Source: a virus. Taken from it: a stretch of 42,117 bases of DNA. The notes under the pieces were generated by a model that was not told the origin of the DNA, did not search any database, and saw only the letters and a list, made by a program, of their open reading frames with translations. The translations under genes and the position numbers were made by a program. Below are positions 285 through 41,834 of the stretch, one piece after another. The stretch lies in IMG/VR virus record IMGVR_UViG_3300050821_002614, positions 1 to 42,117 of that record; one strand, 5' to 3'. Within the stretch, counting starts at the first letter, position 1. The number at the start of each line of letters is the position of its first letter.

Positions 285-2399
285 GTGCAGGAATGTGCGC
301 AGCGTTTGCGCCTCTGTGCCGAAGCCGAGACCGACAACCGCGCCGCTGGCATGGCGGCAATGGAGTTCAGGGACGGCAACCAGTGGCCGGATGATCTCTA
401 CAATCAGCGCAAGATCGATAAGCGGCCGAGTCTTACGATCAATCACACCAATACCTTCGTTAGGCGCGTGGTCAATAACATGCGCCAGCAACGGCCGCGC
501 ATCAAAGTGCATCCGGTGGGCGAGGGCGCGGATGTTACGAAAGCCAATGTTATCGCGGGGCTCATTCGTCACATTGAGAATTTGAGCCAAGCGGCCATCG
601 CCTACGACACGGGCGGTGAGTCGGCGGTCACCATTGGCTGGGGTTACTGGCGCGTCACCTCTGACTTTGTGGCGCCTGATTCGATGGATCAGGAATTGAA
701 AATCAACCCGATCCGCAATCCCTTCACCGTGTACATGGACCCTGGTAGCGTCATGCCGGCCGGCGAGGATGCCGACTGGGTCATCATTTCGCACAAGATG
801 AAGCGCCAGGACTACGCGCGCGAATATCCGGACGCCGACAAAATCAGCTACCAATACACCGGCAGCGGCGATGAGCTATCAGAATGGGAGACCAAAGACG
901 ACATTCGGCTAGCGGAATACTACCGGGTGCGCAAGACGCGGGACACGCTGTACCGCATGACGAACGGGATGTGTCTGTTCAAGGATCAGATGGAGGAATT
1001 ATCGGCAGAGCTTGCCGCCGCAAAGGTCACCATTGCGAAGGACCAATCCGGCAAGCAAGTCAGCCGTCCATCGACGCGCCGGCTGGTGGAATGGTACCAG
1101 CTGAATGGCCTTAAGATCGTAGACCGGCGCGCGCAGGGCGATGATCCGTTGCCCGATGAGTGGATACCGGTCATCCGCTGTGAGGGCAATGTCATTGACT
1201 TGAATGGCCGCATCCGCCGCAAGGGGATGGTCGCGGATCTCATGGACCCGGCGCGCATGTATAATTACTGGCGCACCATGGAAACGGAACTATTGGCGCT
1301 GGCGCCGAAGGCTCCGTTTATCGTGGCCGCAGGTCAATTAGATGGCCATCCGGAATGGAAAGATGCCAATCAGAAACCGTATTCGGCTCTTGTTTATGAG
1401 CCTGCCTTTGTGGAACAACCGGACGGCTCAAAACAAGTTTTGCCGCCACCACAACGCATGCAACCTATCCCGGTACCGGCTGGTGCGGTGCAAGCCGCGC
1501 AGGGTGCACAGCAGGATCTTATGGCGGTTGCAGGTATGCCGCACGAGCCGAGTGCTGATGTACCGGGCGCGGCCATTAGCGGGGTGGCGTTACAGCGTCG
1601 CCAGGCCCTTTCCGATATTGGCCACTTTCAATACTATGACAATCAGACCCGCGCTATCGCTCACACAGGACGAATACTACTTCAGCTGATTCCGTTCTAC
1701 TACGACACCGCGCGCATGCAGCGGATCATCGGTGAGGACGGCGTGCCGTCGATGCAGGGCATCAATCAGCCGATGCCGTCCGGTGATGGCACCGCCATCA
1801 TGCAGGTCAAAAATGATCTCACGGTGGGCCGTTACGATGTGGTGATGGACACCGGTCCAGGCTATGAGACCAAGCGCCTAGAGGGCGCCGAGTCCATGCT
1901 GGAATTGCTCAAGACCCCCTTAGCGGAGCCCATCGTCAAGGTGGGCTCTGATGTCATCGTGCGCGGCATGGACTTTAACGGTGCCAGCGATCTAGCCGAC
2001 CGGCTGATGCCGACCAATCCTGAAAGCATGAACAAGCTGGTGGCATCGCTCCCGAAAGAAGCGCAAGGCGTGGTGCAGGCCATGCAACAGCAAATGGCGC
2101 AGCAATCCCAAGTGATCCAGCACCTACAACTAGAGATCAAGTATAAGTCCGATATTGAAAAGGGCTGGATGGGTGTAGAGCGCGACAAGATTGCGACCAA
2201 ACAGAAAGAGTCGCACGAATCGAATCTCACCAAGAAAGAGGACACGCACGTCCGGGCGGTCACCGCGCGCGATGTCGCCGAGATCCAGGCCGGCGGGCAA
2301 TTGCTTAAAAGTCATGTCGACGCTGCGCACGAAACCGTCGCGCGGCGCGAAACATTGGCAGCGGCAGAAAAGGCCGAAAAGTCTAACGGCGCCGCCTAG
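285..2399 (+). CDS. Portal protein, P22 family
   Basis: 704 residues from the GTG at 285, the length of P22-type portals. It forms the dodecameric ring at the head vertex, where the terminase docks and through which DNA passes. The N-terminal region has AMEFRDGNQW and RPSLTINHTNTFVRRVVNNMRQ, typical of the family. The C-terminus is a long charged helix (about residues 590-704), like the P22 portal barrel. The frame is open upstream to a stop at 207, and the unused codons read DSDKPATTDSEIV, which looks like genuine portal N-terminus. The true start may therefore be a non-standard codon (ATA at 225 or ATT at 231), with AGAAGG at 215-220 as ribosome site. GTG 285 is the first standard start. 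Confidence 0.9.
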   Translation: MQECAQRLRLCAEAETDNRAAGMAAMEFRDGNQWPDDLYNQRKIDKRPSLTINHTNTFVRRVVNNMRQQRPRIKVHPVGEGADVTKANVIAGLIRHIENLSQAAIAYDTGGESAVTIGWGYWRVTSDFVAPDSMDQELKINPIRNPFTVYMDPGSVMPAGEDADWVIISHKMKRQDYAREYPDADKISYQYTGSGDELSEWETKDDIRLAEYYRVRKTRDTLYRMTNGMCLFKDQMEELSAELAAAKVTIAKDQSGKQVSRPSTRRLVEWYQLNGLKIVDRRAQGDDPLPDEWIPVIRCEGNVIDLNGRIRRKGMVADLMDPARMYNYWRTMETELLALAPKAPFIVAAGQLDGHPEWKDANQKPYSALVYEPAFVEQPDGSKQVLPPPQRMQPIPVPAGAVQAAQGAQQDLMAVAGMPHEPSADVPGAAISGVALQRRQALSDIGHFQYYDNQTRAIAHTGRILLQLIPFYYDTARMQRIIGEDGVPSMQGINQPMPSGDGTAIMQVKNDLTVGRYDVVMDTGPGYETKRLEGAESMLELLKTPLAEPIVKVGSDVIVRGMDFNGASDLADRLMPTNPESMNKLVASLPKEAQGVVQAMQQQMAQQSQVIQHLQLEIKYKSDIEKGWMGVERDKIATKQKESHESNLTKKEDTHVRAVTARDVAEIQAGGQLLKSHVDAAHETVARRETLAAAEKAEKSNGAA

Positions 2400-2453: not shown

Positions 2454-3461
2454 TTGGCTAAAGTAGTCACGAGTCAGGGTATCCAGGAATTTGTCTCTTC
2501 CGGCAAATTCGAGCAAGTCAAAAACGATCCGCCGCGAAAGAAAGCGGATGACGCGCCGCCGCTGGAGGTCAAAGACAAGCCACCGGTGGCCGACACCAAG
2601 ACGCCAGAGAAGAAGGAACACGAAGAGGAGGAGACCTTAAGCGAGAAGATCCGCGCGCTGATGGAATCGGACCCGGAGCTTGCCGAGTACGTCACCAAAA
2701 AGAACGCCGCGATCAATCGCAAGCATAAGGAAATGCGTGAGGCACGCGAAGCCGCCGAAGAGGCGGAACGCTTCGCCGAGAATCAGTATAACGAACGGCG
2801 TCTATCAGGTGAACGACTGTCGGCGGCCGAACGAGAGCTAGCGGACTTGCGAGCCAAGGCCGCACCGCCGGAGAAGAAAGAGGAACTCAAGAAACCAGAT
2901 CCTAAAGAGTTTTATGACGATAAAGGGCAATTCAAGGCGTTTGAGTACGCAGAGGAACTAGCCGCTTATTCAGCGAATAAAGCGGTAGCGGACGATAGGG
3001 CCAAGCAGGCCGAAGATCAGCGCAAAGCGGAACTCGCGGCAGCTGAAAAATTAGCGCGTGAGCGCGTGGCGGAAGCCACCAAGACCTATCCGGATTTTGC
3101 CGAAGTGATGGCGGCCAGCGATTTGCAAACGCATACCGCGGTGCTGCAATACCTGTCGGCCAGTGAGCACATCGGCGAGGTGAGTTATTACCTCGCGAAG
3201 CATCCGGAGTTTGTTGAACGCATCAACAAATTGCATCCGCTGAAAGCGATCGCGGAAGTCCGCGACATCGAAAAGACCTTTGAAAAGCCGCCGGTGAAGA
3301 CCGAAGAGACTACCTCGGAACTACCGGTAAAAACGTCTAGCGCGCCCGCGCCCATCAAACCCCTGTCATCCGCCAGCACCGTGAACACCAACACGGACCC
3401 GGCAAAGATGACTTATCGGGAATTGAGGGCCTACGAACGCGCCCGCGCCCGTCGGCGCTAA
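2454..3461 (+). CDS. Scaffolding protein, putative
   Basis: 335 residues, extremely rich in Lys, Glu and Ala and predicted mainly helical, with a long charged segment at about residues 75-215 that could form coiled coil. The C-terminus is basic (ELRAYERARARRR), as expected for the coat-binding end of a P22-type scaffold. It starts with TTG (MAKVV) after AGAGG. Its place between portal and coat, as in P22, is the main support. It would direct procapsid assembly and leave before packaging. Assignment rests on composition and gene order, not on a recognised motif. Confidence 0.75.
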   Translation: MAKVVTSQGIQEFVSSGKFEQVKNDPPRKKADDAPPLEVKDKPPVADTKTPEKKEHEEEETLSEKIRALMESDPELAEYVTKKNAAINRKHKEMREAREAAEEAERFAENQYNERRLSGERLSAAERELADLRAKAAPPEKKEELKKPDPKEFYDDKGQFKAFEYAEELAAYSANKAVADDRAKQAEDQRKAELAAAEKLARERVAEATKTYPDFAEVMAASDLQTHTAVLQYLSASEHIGEVSYYLAKHPEFVERINKLHPLKAIAEVRDIEKTFEKPPVKTEETTSELPVKTSSAPAPIKPLSSASTVNTNTDPAKMTYRELRAYERARARRR

Positions 3462-3484: not shown

Positions 3485-4861
3485 GTGGCAAATAATTTGC
3501 TGACGATGAGCTATATCACTAACGAAGCTCTAGTCGTCCTGGAAAATGAGTTAGTGATTGCGAATCGCGTGGAGCGCCAATACTCCAACGAATTCGCCGA
3601 GACCGGCGCGAAGGTCGGTAACACGGTGAGCATTCGCCGGCCGCCGCGCTACAAGGGCACCTATGGACCGCCCCTGAATGTGGAGGACAGCAACGAGACC
3701 TACGTACAGATCCCGCTGAACTATCAGTTCCACGTCGATGTACAGTTCACCACGCAAGATCTTGCACTCTCCATGGACATGTTCAAGCAACGCATCTTGC
3801 GGCCGCAAATTGCCACGGTTGCGAATCGCATCGATTCGGATACCGCGCAGTATGCGTACCTCAATACCGCGGCATCGCTGGGTACACCGGGCACCAGCCC
3901 CAATAGCTTGAAACTCTTCACCGATGCGCGCGCGATTCTGGCCGCGGAATCCTGCCCGAAACAGGGCGAGAAGAACGCAGTCTTGGACCCCATCAGCATG
4001 TCATCGATGGTCGCGACCGTGCAGGGGTTGTTCAATCCGCAAGCCAAGATCAGCGAGTATATCGATAGCGGTATGATCGCACGCGAGTTCGGCGGCCTCG
4101 ATTGGTGGGAAGACCAGAATATTCCGGTGTTCACCACTGGGGCCGGCGGCAACGGTGCCGCGAACTCGGCGATTCTGACTACGCCGATCGCGGGTACGGC
4201 GTTCCTTACCACCGGCTGGGCGCAGTCCGGCACGGTATCAACGCAAGGCTGGCAGAACAGCACCGCGGTGGTCAGTGTCGGTGATGTGATCCAGTTCGCT
4301 GGCGTCTATCCGGTCAATCCGCAGAACCGCTTGCAGTATGGAAAGACCTTGCGGCAATTCGTGGTGCTGCCACCGGGCGGCTTTGTCACTCCGGCGAACG
4401 GTGCAGCGGCACCAGGCTTGACTTACGGCGCTGCGACCCTGGCCGCGGGCACCTTCAATCCGATCACCGGTCTCTATACCTCCAGCGGCACCGGCACCCT
4501 GACGTTGACCATTGGGGACGCCGTCATCAGTGGCGGACAGTTCCAGAACGTGACGGTAGCGCCCGCAAGCGCCGCCATCATCACCTTGAACGGTTCCACC
4601 ACCCCGGCAACGAATGGCGGCTTGGTGAGTCCGCAATCGCTGGTGTTCCACAAGTATGCGTATGCACTGGCGTTCGCGGACTTGCCGCTACCGCGTGGAG
4701 TGGAATACGCGGCGCGTGCCTATGACGATGAGGACGTGGGCATGAGCATTCGCTGTGTCACGCAATACACCATCAACAACGATTCTGAGCCCACGCGGGC
4801 GGATGTGTTGTATGGCCCGGCGAGTCTGTATCGCTCTCTCGGTCTCCGGGTTGCCGGTTAA
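3485..4861 (+). CDS. Major capsid (coat) protein, P22 type
   Basis: 458 residues; GTG start after AGGAG. The N-terminus (LLTMSYITNEALVVLEN, then VGNTVSIRRPPRYKG at about 43-57) is characteristic of the P22 coat superfamily with an HK97-like fold. The segment at about residues 255-390 is rich in Gly, Thr and Ala and probably forms an inserted beta domain. It follows scaffold directly and begins the structural run. Residues 4-37 are closely similar to residues 54-85 of the twin-arginine-signal protein at 38795-39133, a partial duplication. Confidence 0.92.
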   Translation: MANNLLTMSYITNEALVVLENELVIANRVERQYSNEFAETGAKVGNTVSIRRPPRYKGTYGPPLNVEDSNETYVQIPLNYQFHVDVQFTTQDLALSMDMFKQRILRPQIATVANRIDSDTAQYAYLNTAASLGTPGTSPNSLKLFTDARAILAAESCPKQGEKNAVLDPISMSSMVATVQGLFNPQAKISEYIDSGMIAREFGGLDWWEDQNIPVFTTGAGGNGAANSAILTTPIAGTAFLTTGWAQSGTVSTQGWQNSTAVVSVGDVIQFAGVYPVNPQNRLQYGKTLRQFVVLPPGGFVTPANGAAAPGLTYGAATLAAGTFNPITGLYTSSGTGTLTLTIGDAVISGGQFQNVTVAPASAAIITLNGSTTPATNGGLVSPQSLVFHKYAYALAFADLPLPRGVEYAARAYDDEDVGMSIRCVTQYTINNDSEPTRADVLYGPASLYRSLGLRVAG

Positions 4862-7897: not shown

Positions 7898-8878
7898 ATG
7901 GCCACCACGGCGCTAGACATCATCACTGGCGCGTTACTCAATATCAACAGCTATTCCCCCGGCGAAACGCTGAACAATGCCGACGCCACTACGGCATTGA
8001 ATGTGCTCAATGATTTACTAGAGTCGCTCTCGACCGATCAGTGTTTTGTTTATACGCAAGCGGAGACCATCTTTCCGTGGGTCGCCGGGCAGTATCAGTA
8101 TAGCGTCGGCAATCCGGTAAGCCCGACTACGTTTGTCGGCGCCGTCACGGGCGCAAGTAATGTCATCACTGGCATTACCGCGATACCGAGTGACTTAGCG
8201 CTGGGCGCCACCATCACCGATGGCCAAGCGGTCTTGACTGCGGGTACCGCACTTAACCCCTTGCCGGTGACGGTGACCGGGATCGGCGCCAGCACCGTGA
8301 CGCTATCCTCGCCGGCCACTGCAACGCCCGCCATCAATCCGGACACCATCAACTATACGGTGCCGGGCAATATTCCGATGCAACGCCCGTTGCGCTTTCG
8401 CGATGGCTTCACGCGCGCCAATACCTCTGGAATTTCGAACCTCGACTATTCGTTCCAGATGATTTCCTTTGATCGGTACAAAGAGGAACTCTTAAAGAAC
8501 GTGCAAGGTCCGTGGCCCTATGTGGCGGCGTATCAGCCCACGTTCCCCTATGGCACGCTCTATGTGTACCCGGCGCCTGGCAGCAATTACACCGCGCATC
8601 TCTTTACCGATTTAATTATCAGCGATTTCGCCGCGACCACCACCGCGTACAGCATGCCGCAAGGGTACTCGCGGGCGCTTAAGAAATTGCTGGCCCTGGA
8701 GCTTGCGCCGAACTACGGCAAGGCGCCGTCACCGCTACTGATGAGCCAGGCCAAGGAGGCCAAGGAACTCATCAAGTCGGTGAACGATACGCCAGTGGTG
8801 ACCTTGCGCTTTGATAGCGCGATTGCGTCGGCACAAGTTAATGACGCCGGCTGGATCATTCGCGGCGGCTTCGTATAG
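7898..8878 (+). CDS. P22 gp4-like head-tail adaptor / tail accessory factor
   Basis: 326 residues. The N-terminus (TALDIITGALLNINSYSPGE, then a helix with LNVLNDLLESLS) and the C-terminal helices (YSRALKKLLALELAPNYG) match the tail accessory factor family (P22_Tail-4 type), which caps the portal and closes the head channel. P22 gp4 has 166 residues. The excess here is partly a beta-rich insert at about residues 80-150 (GASNVIT...), related to an insert in the next gene. Its ATG directly follows the preceding TAA. Confidence 0.82.
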   Translation: MATTALDIITGALLNINSYSPGETLNNADATTALNVLNDLLESLSTDQCFVYTQAETIFPWVAGQYQYSVGNPVSPTTFVGAVTGASNVITGITAIPSDLALGATITDGQAVLTAGTALNPLPVTVTGIGASTVTLSSPATATPAINPDTINYTVPGNIPMQRPLRFRDGFTRANTSGISNLDYSFQMISFDRYKEELLKNVQGPWPYVAAYQPTFPYGTLYVYPAPGSNYTAHLFTDLIISDFAATTTAYSMPQGYSRALKKLLALELAPNYGKAPSPLLMSQAKEAKELIKSVNDTPVVTLRFDSAIASAQVNDAGWIIRGGFV

Positions 8879-10611
8879 TGTTCCGCGGCGGCGATTTCGG
8901 TTTCGTCGGCGATAGCTATCAAGCGCCGATGGTGCTGCAGGATGCACAGGACACCATCAATTTTTATCTGGAGAAGGACCCGAAAGAATCTCCCAAGATG
9001 CCGAACGCCTTATTGGGTGCGCCAGGGCTGAATCCCTTAGCATCGACGCAGACCGGCCAGGTGCGCGGCGCGTGGGTGTTGCCTGGCAGCACCGCCGCGT
9101 TAGTGGTGACCGGCAACATGTTGTATCTGGTGACGATCACGGTACCGGCCACGCAAACGTCGCTGCCGCAGTATGCGACAACCGCTGTCGGGACGTTGCT
9201 CACCAACTCCGGCCCGGTGGTGATGCGCGATAACGGTGTATTGACCAATGGCCAGGGCGGCTATTGCCTGATCGTTGACGGCCAATATGGCTATTATTAC
9301 TTGCTGTCGGGCGTGCCCTACGTCAATACCTTTACCGGGAGCTTGAGCGGCACCAGTAATGTGATTACCTTGCCGGGCGTATTGCCGGTGGGCTTGATCG
9401 TAGCGAATACCCCGACCTTAACCGACACCGGCGGTGTGATCCCCGGCGGTACGTTCATAGTCTCGGTCGACACCGTCGCCTTGACCATCACCATGTCCGC
9501 GGCGGCTAGCGGGAATTTTCCTAGCGACACCGTGAGCCTGCATATTCCGGTGTTCGGGCGCATCACTGATCCCGGATTTTTGGGCGCCAATCGCATTCTA
9601 TTTATTGAAGGCTGGCTCATGTTGAATCAGCCTGGCACGCGCACCTTCTACACCACCGGGCCTACGCCATATTCAATGCTCTTTCCTGGCGCGTTCTTTG
9701 CGCTGAAAGACTCCAGTACCGATAACCTCATTACGCTGATGGAGAACAACCGTGAAGCGTGGCTCATCGGGGAGCGCACCTCTGAAGTCTGGTTCAATGC
9801 AGGCGGTACTAATTTTGCATTTCAACGATTACCGGGGGTGGGTCCTCAGATTGGATGCGCAGCCGTGCATTCCATATCACGGGGCGGGGCTCAATTGGTC
9901 TGGCTCGCACGCAACGAACAAGGCCAGAACGTGGTTGTCTGTACCAGTCAATATAGCTGGAAACGACTTAGCAACCACGCCATAGAACATGCGATCTCGC
10001 AATACCCGGTGGTCTCGGATGCCATTGGCTATTGCTACGAAGAAGAGGGCCACCTCTTCTATATGCTCACCTTCCCGACCGCGGACGTGACTTGGTGCTA
10101 TGACTTTGTCAGTGAGACATGGGCCAAGCGCTTGTCATTCGATCCGGTCGCCGGGGTCTATCATCGGCACCGCTCCAATTGCTTCATGGACTTCGGCGAC
10201 GTGCGCATGGTGGGCGATTACACCACCGGGCAATTGCACCAGATGTCGCGCGCGTTCTACACCGATGCCGGCAACCCGTTACGGGCACTGCGCCGTACCC
10301 CGCACCTGTGGGGCAAAGAGAACCGCGAACGCTTGTTCTTTGCGCAACTGCAAATTGAATTTACCCCCGGTGTGGGCTTACAGACGGGCCAGGGCACTAA
10401 CCCCCAAGTCATGTTGCGCTGGAGCGATGACGGCGCCTTTAGCTGGAGCAATGAACACTGGACCTCGATCGGCGCCGCCGGCCAGACCAAAAACCGCGCC
10501 ATCTGGCGCCAGCTGGGCCAGGCGCGTGATCGGGTGTGGGAAGCGGTGATTAGTGACCCGGTGCCGCGCGACATCATCGGCGCCACCCTCTACGCGGAGA
10601 CTACCGAATAA
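8878..10611 (+). CDS. P22 gp10-like packaged-DNA stabilisation protein
   Basis: 577 residues; GTG start overlaps the upstream TAG by one base. The sequence has the features of the gp10 / Phage_stabilise family: a beta-propeller-like series with RILFIEGWLMLNQPGTRTF, NREAWLIGERTSEVW and LVWLARNEQGQNVVV, and the C-terminal RLGQARDR/WRQLG segment. It would seal the neck below the gp4-like adaptor and hold packaged DNA. It carries an inserted domain at about residues 148-225 (SGTSNVIT...) like the insert in the gp4-like protein. The stop overlaps the next ATG. Confidence 0.85.
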   Translation: MFRGGDFGFVGDSYQAPMVLQDAQDTINFYLEKDPKESPKMPNALLGAPGLNPLASTQTGQVRGAWVLPGSTAALVVTGNMLYLVTITVPATQTSLPQYATTAVGTLLTNSGPVVMRDNGVLTNGQGGYCLIVDGQYGYYYLLSGVPYVNTFTGSLSGTSNVITLPGVLPVGLIVANTPTLTDTGGVIPGGTFIVSVDTVALTITMSAAASGNFPSDTVSLHIPVFGRITDPGFLGANRILFIEGWLMLNQPGTRTFYTTGPTPYSMLFPGAFFALKDSSTDNLITLMENNREAWLIGERTSEVWFNAGGTNFAFQRLPGVGPQIGCAAVHSISRGGAQLVWLARNEQGQNVVVCTSQYSWKRLSNHAIEHAISQYPVVSDAIGYCYEEEGHLFYMLTFPTADVTWCYDFVSETWAKRLSFDPVAGVYHRHRSNCFMDFGDVRMVGDYTTGQLHQMSRAFYTDAGNPLRALRRTPHLWGKENRERLFFAQLQIEFTPGVGLQTGQGTNPQVMLRWSDDGAFSWSNEHWTSIGAAGQTKNRAIWRQLGQARDRVWEAVISDPVPRDIIGATLYAETTE

Positions 10612-37028: not shown

Positions 37029-37065
37029 GATGAGCGGCGGAGTAACACACCTAAAGGGGCAACAC

Positions 37066-37509
37066 ATGAACATCGATGAGGCAATCAACAAAGCGGCGGA
37101 TCATATCGAACAGTATCCCGAGTCCTATCACTTCGGGCAGGGCATGGTGATCGACAGAAAGTATCAGGGGTTTGGCCCAGATCCTGGACCCGGCGGCCCG
37201 CACGCATGCATGCTGGCGCGCATCGGCGAAATGGCCGGGGTGCCGGTGGGCGTTGGTTGCGATACGGTCGCGCGGTATATCCTGTCCTCAAGCGCCGGGG
37301 ACTTCTACGAAGCGATCCGCGCCGCCACCGGCAGCAAAGCTGGCCGCCATGATCCGGTACACCATGCACCGACCATCCCCGCGGCCATGCGCAAGGTGGC
37401 TAAGAAATATGAAGGGATACCGATCGGGGTGCGGCAGATTTTCGACGCGCCGCCGAGTGAAACCTTAGCGCCGCACTACCGCGTGTTTTCCGTCCGCATC
37501 ACGGCCTAG
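37066..37509 (+). CDS. Hypothetical protein, paralogue A (147 aa)
   Basis: ATG after AAAGGGG. NKAADHIEQYPESYHFGQG, then ACMLARIGEMAGVPVGVG and PAAMRKVAKKYEGIPIGVRQIF. The next gene is a clear relative with the same order of motifs. The fold and function are unknown. It begins the late-side small-gene run after the permuted-tRNA element. Confidence 0.65.
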   Translation: MNIDEAINKAADHIEQYPESYHFGQGMVIDRKYQGFGPDPGPGGPHACMLARIGEMAGVPVGVGCDTVARYILSSSAGDFYEAIRAATGSKAGRHDPVHHAPTIPAAMRKVAKKYEGIPIGVRQIFDAPPSETLAPHYRVFSVRITA

Positions 37510-37517
37510 GGGGCATC

Positions 37518-37916
37518 ATGGAACTTTACGAAGGTTTGATGAAAACCGCCGATCATATCGAACAACATCCGGAACTCTATTCGTTCGGCATCACTGGCCG
37601 GCCGGATACATTTGAGCCGCGCGCGTGCTTTCTCGGGCGCTTGGGTGACATCATGGGCATGGACTTTTTTGCCGCCAACGCGGTGGCGGTGCGCTTCTTC
37701 CATACGGAAGAGGGCGCAATATTCCATGATCTCATTCGTATCGCCACGCGTGGCGGCATGCTTACCGATGTCATGCCATTCCCGAGTCGCGTGGCGCCGG
37801 CCATCCGTGAGTTTGCCAAACGCTACGCGCCCGCGCCGGCACTCCCGGAGAGCGTGCGCGCCATTTTCAACGTTCCCGCACTCATCGAAGGAGAACACGC
37901 CCATGCCGTTATTTGA
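37518..37916 (+). CDS. Hypothetical protein, paralogue B (132 aa)
   Basis: Tandem relative of the preceding gene: MKTADHIEQHPELYSFGITG, ACFLGRLGDIMGMDF, PAIREFAKRYAPAPALPESV. It overlaps the next gene by 14 bp. The shared pattern (DHIEQ-P-E-Y-FG; AC-L-R-G; P-A-R-A-YA) marks a small family. Confidence 0.65.
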   Translation: MELYEGLMKTADHIEQHPELYSFGITGRPDTFEPRACFLGRLGDIMGMDFFAANAVAVRFFHTEEGAIFHDLIRIATRGGMLTDVMPFPSRVAPAIREFAKRYAPAPALPESVRAIFNVPALIEGEHAHAVI

Positions 37917-38424: not shown

Positions 38425-38817
38425 TTGCGAGGGTATCCGCCTTTGATCTCTGAAACCCGCCGCCGGCTCAAAGAATGGGGTCTCTGGGCTTGCGGCGGTG
38501 AACCGTCCATGTCCTCCATGTTCAAGGCGATGAACGGGCGCGGTGCGCAGGATTTGCGCGAAATGCCCGACTATATTGCCGAAGTAGATCACATCGTGTG
38601 TGTGGCACCGCGCGACATTCGAATCATCCTCATCAAGTTCTACGGCACCGGCGGCACGGTCCAGGATAAGGCCATTGCGTTGGGGTTGGACCGCCGTAGC
38701 TTGCGTCGCCGCACCGATCGCGCCGACTGGTACGTCCACTCACAACTTGACGCACCGCCCGCGAAGGCGTATCCAGACGCGAGAATAGCGCGTGATGTCG
38801 GAACGTCCCGTGTTTAG
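38425..38817 (+). CDS. Q-like late antitermination protein, putative
   Basis: 130 residues from TTG 38425. PLISETRRRLKEWGLWACGG, then VDHIVCVAPRDIRIILIKFYGTGGTVQDKAIALGLDRRSLRRRTDRA, a C-terminal HTH-like region as in small phage antiterminators. It lies just ahead of the late genes. The frame is open upstream to 38389, and SAYFRADYLRGYPP reads as genuine N-terminus following AAGGAGG (38391-38397), but no standard start codon lies there. The annotated start is probably too late. Confidence 0.62.
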   Translation: MRGYPPLISETRRRLKEWGLWACGGEPSMSSMFKAMNGRGAQDLREMPDYIAEVDHIVCVAPRDIRIILIKFYGTGGTVQDKAIALGLDRRSLRRRTDRADWYVHSQLDAPPAKAYPDARIARDVGTSRV

Positions 38818-39133
38818 CCGGCGCGCGTTCCTGCAAGCGTTCCTGCCGGCCGCCATTATCGCGCCGGTGTTGGCTGAAGAACTCATCTGGCAGCCGACTA
38901 AAACCATTGTGTTACCGCCCGCGGGTGGTTGGTGGGTGCCGGCCGCGGGCAATACGTTGCTGACGATTTCCTATATCACTAATGAAGCGCTGAAAATCTT
39001 GGAAGCGGACATCCGGATTGCTGAGGGCATCCGCTACGGCAATCAATTTAATGGTCGGCGCTACGGCCACATTGTAGTCAACGACAATACTTACCGTCAT
39101 TTAAGGAGCATTACCGATGCCTGGCAAGCCTGA
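38795..39133 (+). CDS. Twin-arginine-signal protein carrying a coat N-terminus copy
   Basis: 112 residues from ATG 38795. Residues 8-27 are a Tat-type signal: SRRAFLQ followed by hydrophobic AFLPAAIIAPVLA. After a Pro/Trp linker, residues 54-85 (LLTISYITNEALKILEADIR) repeat the N-terminus of the major capsid protein (LLTMSYITNEALVVLENELV), also at DNA level. It may be a membrane-bound or exported decoy, an assembly anchor, or a minor virion protein. It overlaps the Q-like gene by 23 bp. Confidence 0.78.
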   Translation: MSERPVFSRRAFLQAFLPAAIIAPVLAEELIWQPTKTIVLPPAGGWWVPAAGNTLLTISYITNEALKILEADIRIAEGIRYGNQFNGRRYGHIVVNDNTYRHLRSITDAWQA

Positions 39134-39296
39134 AAATAAAGAGTCCATGAAAGGCGAAAGCCGCGCGCATGGCTCCAAGGGTGCGGAGTCCGTCAAGTCA
39201 ATTGAGCATGTGGGCTCATCCGGACCGCACGGCGTGCGCTTCCCGGTCCACAACCACCCGGACAAGTCCGTGGTCCACAAGACCCTGAAAGAGTAA
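39117..39296 (+). CDS. Small hydrophilic protein (59 aa)
   Basis: ATG after AAGGAG. Rich in Lys, Ser, Gly and His (KGAESVKSIEHVGSSGPHGV), no hydrophobic core, probably disordered. Its TAA overlaps the next ATG. Function unknown. Confidence 0.6.
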   Translation: MPGKPENKESMKGESRAHGSKGAESVKSIEHVGSSGPHGVRFPVHNHPDKSVVHKTLKE

Positions 39297-39409: not shown

Positions 39410-39705
39410 TTACCCCAACCATCGGCCGTATTGTGTGGTTTTGGAATAGTCCGGAACTTCGCGGCGCGCAACCAGAAGCCGCGATTGTGGCCAAAGTTTG
39501 GTCCGATACCATGGTGAACCTCGGCGTATTCCGCGATAACGGCAATTGCACCGGCTTTACCTCGGTGACCTTGTGGCAGGGCGAGGGGGAGCCGCCGGCC
39601 AGCGCGTATTGCGAATGGATGCCGTATCAGAAAGGCCAGGCCGCCAAGACGGATGCACTGGAACTTGCCGCTGCCGCACGTGCCGCAGGTCCGACCAATT
39701 ATTAA
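39406..39705 (+). CDS. Small conserved phage protein (99 aa)
   Basis: Begins MITPTIGRIVWFW and contains QPEAAIVAKVWSDTMVNLGVF and GEPPASAYCEWMPYQ. It resembles a common small phage protein with an SH3-like or beta-barrel pattern, function unknown. Overlaps the GroES-like gene by one base. Confidence 0.65.
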   Translation: MITPTIGRIVWFWNSPELRGAQPEAAIVAKVWSDTMVNLGVFRDNGNCTGFTSVTLWQGEGEPPASAYCEWMPYQKGQAAKTDALELAAAARAAGPTNY

Positions 39706-40109
39706 TGAGCGCGCCCGGTGTCCGTCTCTCTGACAAAGCGGTTAACTTTGTCGCTCCCGGCCGGCACATCCGGCCGCGCGGGGATTATCTCATCGTCAAG
39801 CCGCTGCCGCTCACGCTCTCCGAGCGACTTAAAGCTGATTGGCATGGTGAAGTCGTCCGCGGGCGAGTCATTGCCGCTGGTCCCGGTTGTTATAAGAACA
39901 TCCACCGGCGCGGTGTCAAAGACGGCAAGCCCTGGCGCACCGTGCGTCAATCTCAAGTCTTCACCCCAAATGAAGTCCAAGTAGGCGACATCGTACAGCT
40001 GGGCGGGATGGAGATTGAAGGATACCTTTTCCCAAAAGTATGGGTTAGCGGCGATTGGTGTGTAATTTGCCGCGAAGAGGATGTGTGTTTCATTGAATGC
40101 AAGCCCTAA
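39705..40109 (+). CDS. GroES-like co-chaperonin
   Basis: 134 residues from ATG 39705. Cpn10 pattern in order: RGDYLIVKPLPLT, then VVRGRVIAAGPG, NEVQVGDIVQLGGMEI, and REEDVCFIE. These correspond to the beta-barrel strands and the closing strand of GroES. The segment between (YKNIHRRGVKDGKPWRTV) could be a longer loop. It would help the host GroEL fold coat protein, as T4 gp31 does. It lies just ahead of terminase and overlaps TerS by 13 bp. Confidence 0.75.
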   Translation: MSAPGVRLSDKAVNFVAPGRHIRPRGDYLIVKPLPLTLSERLKADWHGEVVRGRVIAAGPGCYKNIHRRGVKDGKPWRTVRQSQVFTPNEVQVGDIVQLGGMEIEGYLFPKVWVSGDWCVICREEDVCFIECKP

Positions 40110-40585
40110 GCCCCGCTGAAATTGCGGCGATCGAAAAAGAGAAACGCCGCGCGCAAGCACTCAAGAATTTTGCCGGCCACACCTTAAAAAAAGGCGAGGC
40201 GCCGGGCCGCGCGGTGGGTTCCCGCAACCGGCTGCAGGCCGGGTTCCTATATGCGCTCTCGGAAGATTTCGCCAAGTACGGCAAGGGCGCCATTGAACAC
40301 GCGCGCCGCATCGATCCCATGGGGTATGTGAAGACCATCGCCAACCTCATGCCAAAACAGTTTGAGCAAACGACCCCGTTAGAGGAATTGAGCGATTCCG
40401 AACTCATCGCAGCCATTGCCCTTATCCGATCCAAACTTTCTGTTGGCACTAGAGAAAGAATTGGAGAAGAGAAAGAGCCGCAATCGCTTGATCGACTACC
40501 GGCCGTACCCGAAGCAGCTGGAGTTCCACCGCGCCGGCCTCGACTACCGCGAACGCCTGCTAATGGCGGGGAATCAACTCGGTAA
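40097..40585 (+). CDS. Small terminase subunit, putative
   Basis: 162 residues. The N-terminal part (ALSPAEIAAIEKEKRRAQALK; GRAVGSRNRLQAGF; DFAKYGKGAIEHARRIDPMGYV) looks like a DNA-recognition protein placed before TerL. The last 56 codons overlap TerL out of frame. There the protein is Pro/Arg-rich ([17 protein letters not shown]) and could be a basic DNA-binding tail. Confidence 0.65.
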   Translation: MQALSPAEIAAIEKEKRRAQALKNFAGHTLKKGEAPGRAVGSRNRLQAGFLYALSEDFAKYGKGAIEHARRIDPMGYVKTIANLMPKQFEQTTPLEELSDSELIAAIALIRSKLSVGTRERIGEEKEPQSLDRLPAVPEAAGVPPRRPRLPRTPANGGESTR

Positions 40586-41834
40586 GACCTTAGCCGCCGG
40601 CATGGAAACCGCCATGCATCTGACCGGTGAGTACCCCGAAGGCTGGCCAGGGCGGCACTGGGGTCGCCCGGTGGTGGGCTGGGCCGCTGGCGTCACCGGA
40701 GAGTCGACGCGTGACAATCCTCAAAGAATCTTACTGGGTCGCACGGGCGCCCTTGGCACTGGAGCAATTCCTAAGGACCGGATTATTGACACCTCAGCAA
40801 GTCGCGGACTTGCGGATGCGGTTGATACGATCCAAGTTCGCCACTCGACCGGCGGCACCTCGACGCTGCAGCTCAAGTCCTATGAAAAAGGACGCGAGAA
40901 GTGGCAAGGCGAAACCCTCGATTTCGTCTGGTTCGATGAAGAACCGCCGGAAGATATCTATACGGAAGGTCTCACGCGCACGAATGCCACCGGCGGTATT
41001 ACGTTTATTACTTTCACGCCGCTACTAGGCGTCACCGGGGTGGTGCGCCGCTTCATCATCGATCACGCACCGGGTACGCACTTCGTACAGATGACCATCG
41101 ATGATGCCGCGCACTACACACAGGAACAACGTGAAGCCATCATTGCGAGTTACAAACCGTTTGAGCGCGATGCCCGAATCCGCGGCATCCCGCAACTAGG
41201 GTCTGGCCGCGTGTTCCCGGTCAATCAGGATGATATTACGGTCGAAGCGTTCCCCATTCCGGAGCACTGGCCGCAAATTGGGGGGCTCGATTTCGGCTGG
41301 GATCACCCCTCGGCCGCCGCGCGTCTCGCGTGGGATCGCGATAACGACGTGTTTTACGTCATCGCGGTACATCGCGCGCGTGAGCAAACCCCGGTGATGT
41401 TCGGCGGCAGTGTCAAGCCATGGGGTGCGTGGTTGCCATGGGCGTGGCCGCATGACGGCTTGCAGCACGACAAGGGCTCAGGCGAGCAGCTGGCCGCGCA
41501 GTACCGCGCGCAAGGCTTGAACCTCATCAAAGTGCGCGCCACCTTTGAGGATGGCACCAACGGATTAGAGGCCGGTGTCGCGGAAATGTTGGACCGCATG
41601 CAAACAGATCGGCTCAAGGTCTTTTCGCACCTGGCTGACTGGTTCGAAGAATTTAACCTCTACCACCGCAAAGAAGGCCTGATTGTGAAGCTGAATGATG
41701 ATCTTCTATCCGCCACGCGCTACGCCCTCATGATGAAGCGCTGGGCCGGCACGCCGAGTAAAAAAGTGGCGGCGCCGTCGTTTGAGCAGAAATTTCCCAG
41801 CGTCCGCGGTGACGGGTTGGGGTGGATGGCCTGA
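40416..41834 (+). CDS. terL: Terminase large subunit, P22 gp2-like
   Basis: 472 residues from TTG 40416. ATPase: [13 protein letters not shown] (adenine-binding region), Walker A AGNQLGKT (51-58), Walker [10 protein letters not shown] (about 168-176) and a coupling TFTPL. Nuclease domain begins near [12 protein letters not shown] (Asp about 292). It packages DNA into procapsids and cuts it, probably by a headful mechanism as in P22. The overlap with TerS is 170 bp. The TTG start has no clear ribosome site, so translation may depend on coupling. Confidence 0.93.

Follow-up and report, generated by a model that had tools for sequence, protein, structure and literature searches.

The window, that is, the whole 42,117 nt stretch of DNA that was analysed, is a complete-looking phage record with a direct terminal repeat of 98 nt. 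On its + strand, a P22-type portal protein (285..2399; PF16510, E 8.2e-148) is followed by a probable scaffolding protein (2454..3461), which matched no family and was assigned because it lies between portal and coat and is of charged composition. The major coat protein (3485..4861, +; PF11651 P22_CoatProtein, E 2.4e-33; phrog_283, E 3.6e-64) comes next, and its family is the source of the copied segment described below. The predicted model of this coat matched the Sf6/CUS-3/P22 coat fold (best E 6.6e-12); at a mean pLDDT of 58.3 the coat family is clear and the ends are unreliable. The Terminase_6 large subunit is encoded at 40416..41834 (+; PF03237, E 2.7e-30; PF17289, E 5.1e-24), downstream of the fusion gene.

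The fusion ORF was confirmed to begin with an ATG at 38795 and to close with a stop codon ending at 39133, with a GTG start also possible at 38792. Its start overlaps an upstream ORF (38425..38817, +; ORF list and sequence) by 23 nt and its end overlaps a downstream ORF (39117..39296, +; ORF list) by 17 nt. In the encoded protein, MSERPVFSRRAFLQ... and a hydrophobic stretch precede PTKTIVLPPAGGW; the following GNTLLTISYITNEALKILEADIRIAEG... repeats the start of the coat, ANNLLTMSYITNEALVVLENELVIAN. The Tat-type leader (38795..38932, +), comprising MSERPVF-SRRAFLQ, the hydrophobic stretch and the conserved QPTKTIVLPPAGGW, was recognised by a 32-member leader profile (E 7e-17) and in the leader alignment. 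Coat residues 3-48, from the N-terminal arm, are copied at 38951..39076 (+), as found by BLASTP, by the coat profile and by phmmer with the phage's own coat. A short C-terminal tail and the stop codon make up the remainder (39077..39133, +), with no coat similarity by BLASTP or the coat profile; the RRYG stretch immediately before this tail is also present in the related protein L084.

The Tat consensus is S/T-R-R-x-F-L near the N-terminus, and small phage proteins are sometimes annotated as 'twin-arginine translocation signal domain-containing protein'. In the fusion, the twin Arg of SRRAFLQ lies near the N-terminus and is followed by a moderately hydrophobic stretch, so both elements of the signal named in the original prediction are present. 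Searches of the fusion protein against Pfam and NCBIfam gave no family at E<=1 and those against PHROGs nothing significant (best 0.096 and 0.17), and its predicted structure (mean pLDDT 38.7) was too poor for use. Elsewhere in this region, a possible GroES-like ORF (39705-40109; phrog_3188 co-chaperonin, E 0.017) lies shortly 3' of the fusion, and the adjacent ORFs 37030-37509 and 37518-37916 resemble tandem paralogues (KAADHIEQYPESYHFG and KTADHIEQHPELYSFG; 74% over 47 nt).

The copied coat segment

Residues 54-95 of the fusion (GTG numbering) aligned to coat residues 3-48 with 22/46 identities (48%; BLASTP E 6e-9), and the match was strongest at residues 54-85, where a repeat of the coat N-terminus had been predicted. 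The Smith-Waterman score of the segment against the coat was 91; the maximum in 2000 shuffles was 66 and none reached 91. The own coat matched the window passenger in phmmer at E 4.5e-6. A profile link of the segment to the coat family had been set as a test beforehand, and a profile of 30 coats duly recovered the fusion ORF at E 5.3e-6 among 13,574 ORFs. Only coat residues 3-48 are represented, and the full coat fold (A, P and E-loop domains) is lacking. The similarity of the leader LPPxGG to an LPPGG loop of the coat (pairwise E 0.018) was taken as chance.

The repeat had also been described as visible in the DNA. The likeness there is only modest, with 56/99 nt identical. The fusion and the coat gene use the same codon at 10/16 shared residues, where 5.9 would be expected from codon usage. 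The window fragment is thus not a recent copy of this phage's coat gene; among the 97 coats compared with this fragment, the own coat comes fourth.

A leader family with exchanged passengers

Relatives of the coat (best 80 of 355) and of the terminase (best 80 of 526 confirmed) served as the starting set. A leader profile was run on their open frames, and scans of viral contigs with alignments gave more members; iteration of the profiles yielded 32 distinct members, to which a later search added four. When 34 virus records (searched piecewise) and the window were combined, 42 leader matches were obtained at E<=0.01, 39 of them below 1e-3. Removal of three exact duplicates left 36 distinct proteins, and L255 brought the total to 37, a second, weak leader match of L255 (E 0.0073) being left out of the count. 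The profile search in other phages thus brought together 37 distinct proteins from IMG/VR contigs that share this leader and among which coat ends turn up repeatedly, so the prediction of a coat N-terminus behind a Tat-type signal both holds and extends beyond the window.

The family is defined by a leader of RRxFL, a hydrophobic stretch and P-x-RT-x-FLPPxGGW, with the consensus MNRRGFLxxLGxAxA..PELLxPxRTFFLPPxGGW. The twin Arg is present in 35/35 complete leaders, one further member being cut by a contig end. A basic residue between the hydrophobic core and LPP was scored by script in 31/35, and three of the four scored without it had been shortened by the search pattern. The best 15-residue Kyte-Doolittle value of the leaders has a median of 1.9. 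The leader is kept through FLPPxGGW or close variants while the passengers vary. Judged from sequence, the fusion therefore belongs to a fast-diverging phage protein family in which a constant Tat-type leader carries a swapped C-terminal passenger. In line with such divergence, the coats of the window and G027 are 74.5% identical and their fusions 44%, and the fusion thus evolves faster than the coat.

The distribution of leader genes is sporadic, with 12 matches in the first 155 loci, nearly all of which were coat or terminase relatives, and several leader genes occur per phage in L164, L172 and L170. This sporadic presence, together with multiple copies per phage and passenger turnover, suggests an arms-race gene. 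Among the 34 records searched, 13 had a Terminase_6N match over the cut-off, and in all 13 the leader genes lay on the terminase strand less than 8 kb away (10 upstream and three just downstream of the terminase). The fusion gene of the window is likewise on the terminase strand and within 8 kb. This proximity and the overlaps of 23 and 17 nt suggest late expression, with the fusion gene co-transcribed with packaging/morphogenesis genes.

Outside the viral contigs, tblastn of a phage collection was performed with the window protein, L064, the L159 leader, L176, L018, L164b, L165 and L255, and the leader was absent among the matches listed. The significant matches listed for L064 and L255 were to coat genes, or to same-position genes in near-identical phages. 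The best leader-like match, in Caulobacter phage Seuss, was rejected (E 10, beginning about 30 residues inside a 304-aa protein). A single scan of genome contigs gave 26 pattern matches, none confirmed as a leader. No paper on a fusion of a Tat leader and a coat fragment was found by title or abstract start, in a mostly open-access coverage.

Passengers derived from coat ends

Coat ends account for 15/37 passengers, namely six coat N-arms from two coat families and nine coat C-tails. The other 22 have no coat similarity, and two of these are either truncated by the end of a contig or very short. For nine passengers, the match to the own phage's coat is direct (E<=2e-3). When passengers were compared with the open frames of their own phage, coats were the only targets at E<=2e-3, with eight matches. 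These comprised the N-arms of the window (E 4.5e-6), G001/L064 (7e-10), G027/L084 (1.1e-4), G009/L162 (3.9e-12) and G021/L172b (5.7e-10), and the C-tails of G019/L170c (1.8e-8), G010/L018 (1.3e-4) and G004/L100 (1.9e-3). As a control, the other ORFs of 50-220 aa from nine phages (the eight matched ones and G007) were compared with their own coats, and 1/2245 matched at 2e-3. This lone match, L212:3-308 (mid-coat, E 3.3e-6), starts with the contig itself, immediately 5' of three leader genes; it may be a truncated fourth leader member, although no leader is seen in it. Once genuine coats and pieces of coat lying at contig ends had been set aside, the best matches of the 30-coat profile among the 13,574 ORFs again came from the leader family and aligned at coat positions 2-59 or 388-450. 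An ORF of G012 (4036-4395) that matched at 7e-4 over a low-complexity stretch is not a leader member.

The L212 contig drew attention on two further counts. Its region 1-2196 holds the three-gene leader array and the truncated ORF matching mid-coat, all upstream of the terminase. In its coat ORF (L212:10600-11932), the usual coat start is preceded by some 40 additional N-terminal residues, which include a hydrophobic stretch. The ATG of this ORF is preceded by a purine-rich stretch resembling a strong ribosome-binding site, and no ATG, GTG or TTG was seen at the usual start (ACG GTC); the product could be a coat anchored in the membrane, or the coat may have been fused to a small gene upstream of it.

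Eight members share the C-tail motif IRxVxQYLINxDxxPxRYD. In one profile-profile comparison this group was placed on coat residues 421-445 (E 6.7e-7), with its invariant R, Q, Y, I, D and D falling on strongly conserved coat columns. Individually, 5/8 members matched the coat profile with E<0.2, and for two of these E was <1e-3. L017, L164 and L193 are C-tails by homology to other members, and inclusion of L170c gives the nine. On an Sf6-type coat alignment, with the domain limits given in the available part of PMC9965877 and a transfer of Sf6 to P22 numbering that was our own step, the C-tail passengers map to the coat P-domain and the window segment to the N-arm. One C-tail pair gave a dN of 0.37 and a dS of 1.43 (dN/dS <0.3), which points to purifying selection over that pair; this was the only pair with a usable dS, two others having given none and the window and G027 being near saturation (dS 2.2).

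Two source coat families were recognised, phrog_283/P22-type and phrog_9953. The second supplied the passengers of L162, whose coat matches phrog_9953 at E 1.7e-20, and L172b, whose passenger was 56% identical to its own coat in the first comparison (E 4e-11). In a second comparison, for each of this pair the own coat fits better (66% for L162, 52% for L172b) than the other passenger (39%), although the L172 coat is also a good fit for the L162 passenger (59%). The L255 protein (G035), encoded between the terminase and a portal-like ORF, consists of the leader and then coat residues 3-56. Its passenger scored 40.6 bits with its own coat and 30.4 with the next of 97 coats, and the G019 passenger scored 28.3 and 22.8, respectively. 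Matches of the L255 passenger to coats of cultured phages were 6e-7 and weaker, and those of the L064 passenger to coats in the phage collection were 7e-7 and weaker. The own-coat ranks of the other passengers in the P22-coat group were 4, 36, 23, 87, 13 and 36 of 95-97 coats. Because the own coat is, for some passengers, a closer match than other passengers or coats, capture of coat ends probably took place repeatedly. The joining of a membrane-targeting leader to a copied capsid-protein end thus seems to have arisen more than once in phages known only from environmental sequence.

Several other assignments of passengers were considered and set aside. That of L130 resembled a piece of a tail protein (ORF 8878-10611) by eye (profile E 1.7), that of L176 matched Acinetobacter phage coats in mid-protein (E 0.6-1), and that of L170a matched a scaffold-like ORF at E 0.03, which is not claimed. 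L165, L171, L173, L174 and L192 share another passenger type, approximately EAAGRFTYDxxTxMLSLWER. The end of the L160:8112-8348 passenger (GFDLAPPGWPSEW) also ends a GroES-looking ORF, L056:2-271 (E 5.6e-7).

Proposed function and comparison with known systems

Tentatively, as a possibility rather than a probability, the fusion is read as a mimic of the coat that is targeted to the membrane, titrates a factor binding the coat and is co-transcribed with packaging/morphogenesis genes. The leader would take the passenger to the inner membrane, where it may be docked on the Tat machinery, anchored or exported, and the passenger would mimic a coat interface and titrate a factor that recognises the coat. 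The likeliest such factor would be a host defence protein that senses capsids or a competitor that hijacks them, and less likely the phage's own scaffold. A decoy is preferred since exchange of passengers, several copies per phage and a scattered distribution are more readily reconciled with an arms-race gene than with a core part of assembly. The suggestion that the segment mimics a coat docking site appears reasonable by analogy, because the N-arm is the scaffold-binding part of the P22 coat in the available text on that phage; the 9/37 C-tail and 22/37 non-coat passengers speak against scaffold docking as the sole role. The non-coat passengers also count against the coat-mimic reading itself, as does the fact that several P22-group passengers do not fit their own coat best. 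The named capsid sensors (CapRel, Thoeris and Lit) act in the cytoplasm, and periplasmic export of a mimic alone would therefore not help.

In a further reading, which we regard as very unlikely, the leader would serve as a Tat disposal chute removing the coat-binding factor from the cytoplasm. The unfolded coat bait alone would be rejected by Tat, the pair formed when a folded capsid sensor or hijacker binds the bait would be exported hitchhiker-style, and the phage would renew the bait by copying its own coat ends. It is unlikely that the leader instead tethers a coat end (arm or tail) to the inner membrane, where this end would contact the scaffold or the growing lattice of coat and bring procapsid assembly to the membrane. 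The gene does lie in a packaging/morphogenesis run adjoining the terminase, as does L255 in its own setting, the captured parts are coat ends, and N-arm residues of the P22 coat bind the scaffold hook (available parts of PMC9965877 and PMC12005531). A core assembly tether sits poorly with the sporadic occurrence among the first 155 loci, the swapping of N-arm for C-tail between members, the majority of members without a coat segment, and the Q found in L084 at a conserved coat Glu position.

Some fragments resemble the coats of other phages more than that of their own phage, which could indicate a dominant-negative weapon: within a shared cell, it would poison the assembly of capsids by related phages or satellites. 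Precedents would be the SaPIbov5 capsid homologue Ccm, which redirects helper capsids (PMC8569155, as far as its available text goes), and the prophage protein Tab, which is described as blocking tail assembly. Such a weapon is unlikely, as the apparently recent captures are nearest to the own coat and would hit the phage itself, and poisoning needs no Tat leader. The conservation of the leader while passengers vary, 22/37 of them without coat similarity, would also suit an effect of the leader itself (e.g. occupation of the Tat machinery), with the passenger as interchangeable cargo often recombined from the coat gene. This is doubtful, given that the traceable passengers are coat ends and not other structural proteins of the same phage, and that purifying selection is indicated over one C-tail pair. 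Fast divergence and low codon identity with the coat gene might even be expected of recombination debris remaining open by chance. Such a non-functional chimera is very unlikely when the leader is conserved across different phages, coat ends are captured repeatedly, the surrounding overlapping ORFs are intact and dN/dS is <0.3 in the one usable pair.

If the preferred reading of a decoy or that of a tether were true, phages would be repeatedly converting parts of their own capsid into effectors in their own right that are directed to the membrane. Baits would offer a direct route to the coat interfaces recognised by host defences or hijackers; alternatively, procapsid assembly would be membrane-coupled in P22-like phages. 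The leader family is a ready set of natural variants for testing.

Among known systems, as described in the available portions of the papers cited, SaPIbov5 Ccm resembles the fusion in being a second coat-derived protein beside the real coat, and is able to interact with the coat (PMC8569155). Ccm differs in forming whole pentameric capsomers and in being satellite-encoded, whereas the fusion is a coat fragment rather than a capsomer-forming homologue, and the family has coat ends of 30-60 residues behind a Tat-type leader in the phage itself. The segment copied in the window corresponds to the N-arm that binds the scaffold hook in P22, but there the arm belongs to the coat itself, and a membrane-targeted copy is not described in the accessible text of PMC9965877 and PMC12005531. 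Capsid proteins trigger CapRel and Thoeris, and the Gol peptide of the T4 coat triggers Lit (PMC9712102, PMC11312562, from the portions available). Host factors thus recognise coat regions, and by analogy a coat mimic could be a decoy; in those systems the triggers lie within the real coat and are not separate leader-bearing copies. Finally, in Tat hitchhiker export, partners bound to a protein with a Tat leader can cross the membrane together with it, which in the available part of PMC4273604 is described for the E. coli aldehyde oxidoreductase PaoABC and not for phage proteins.
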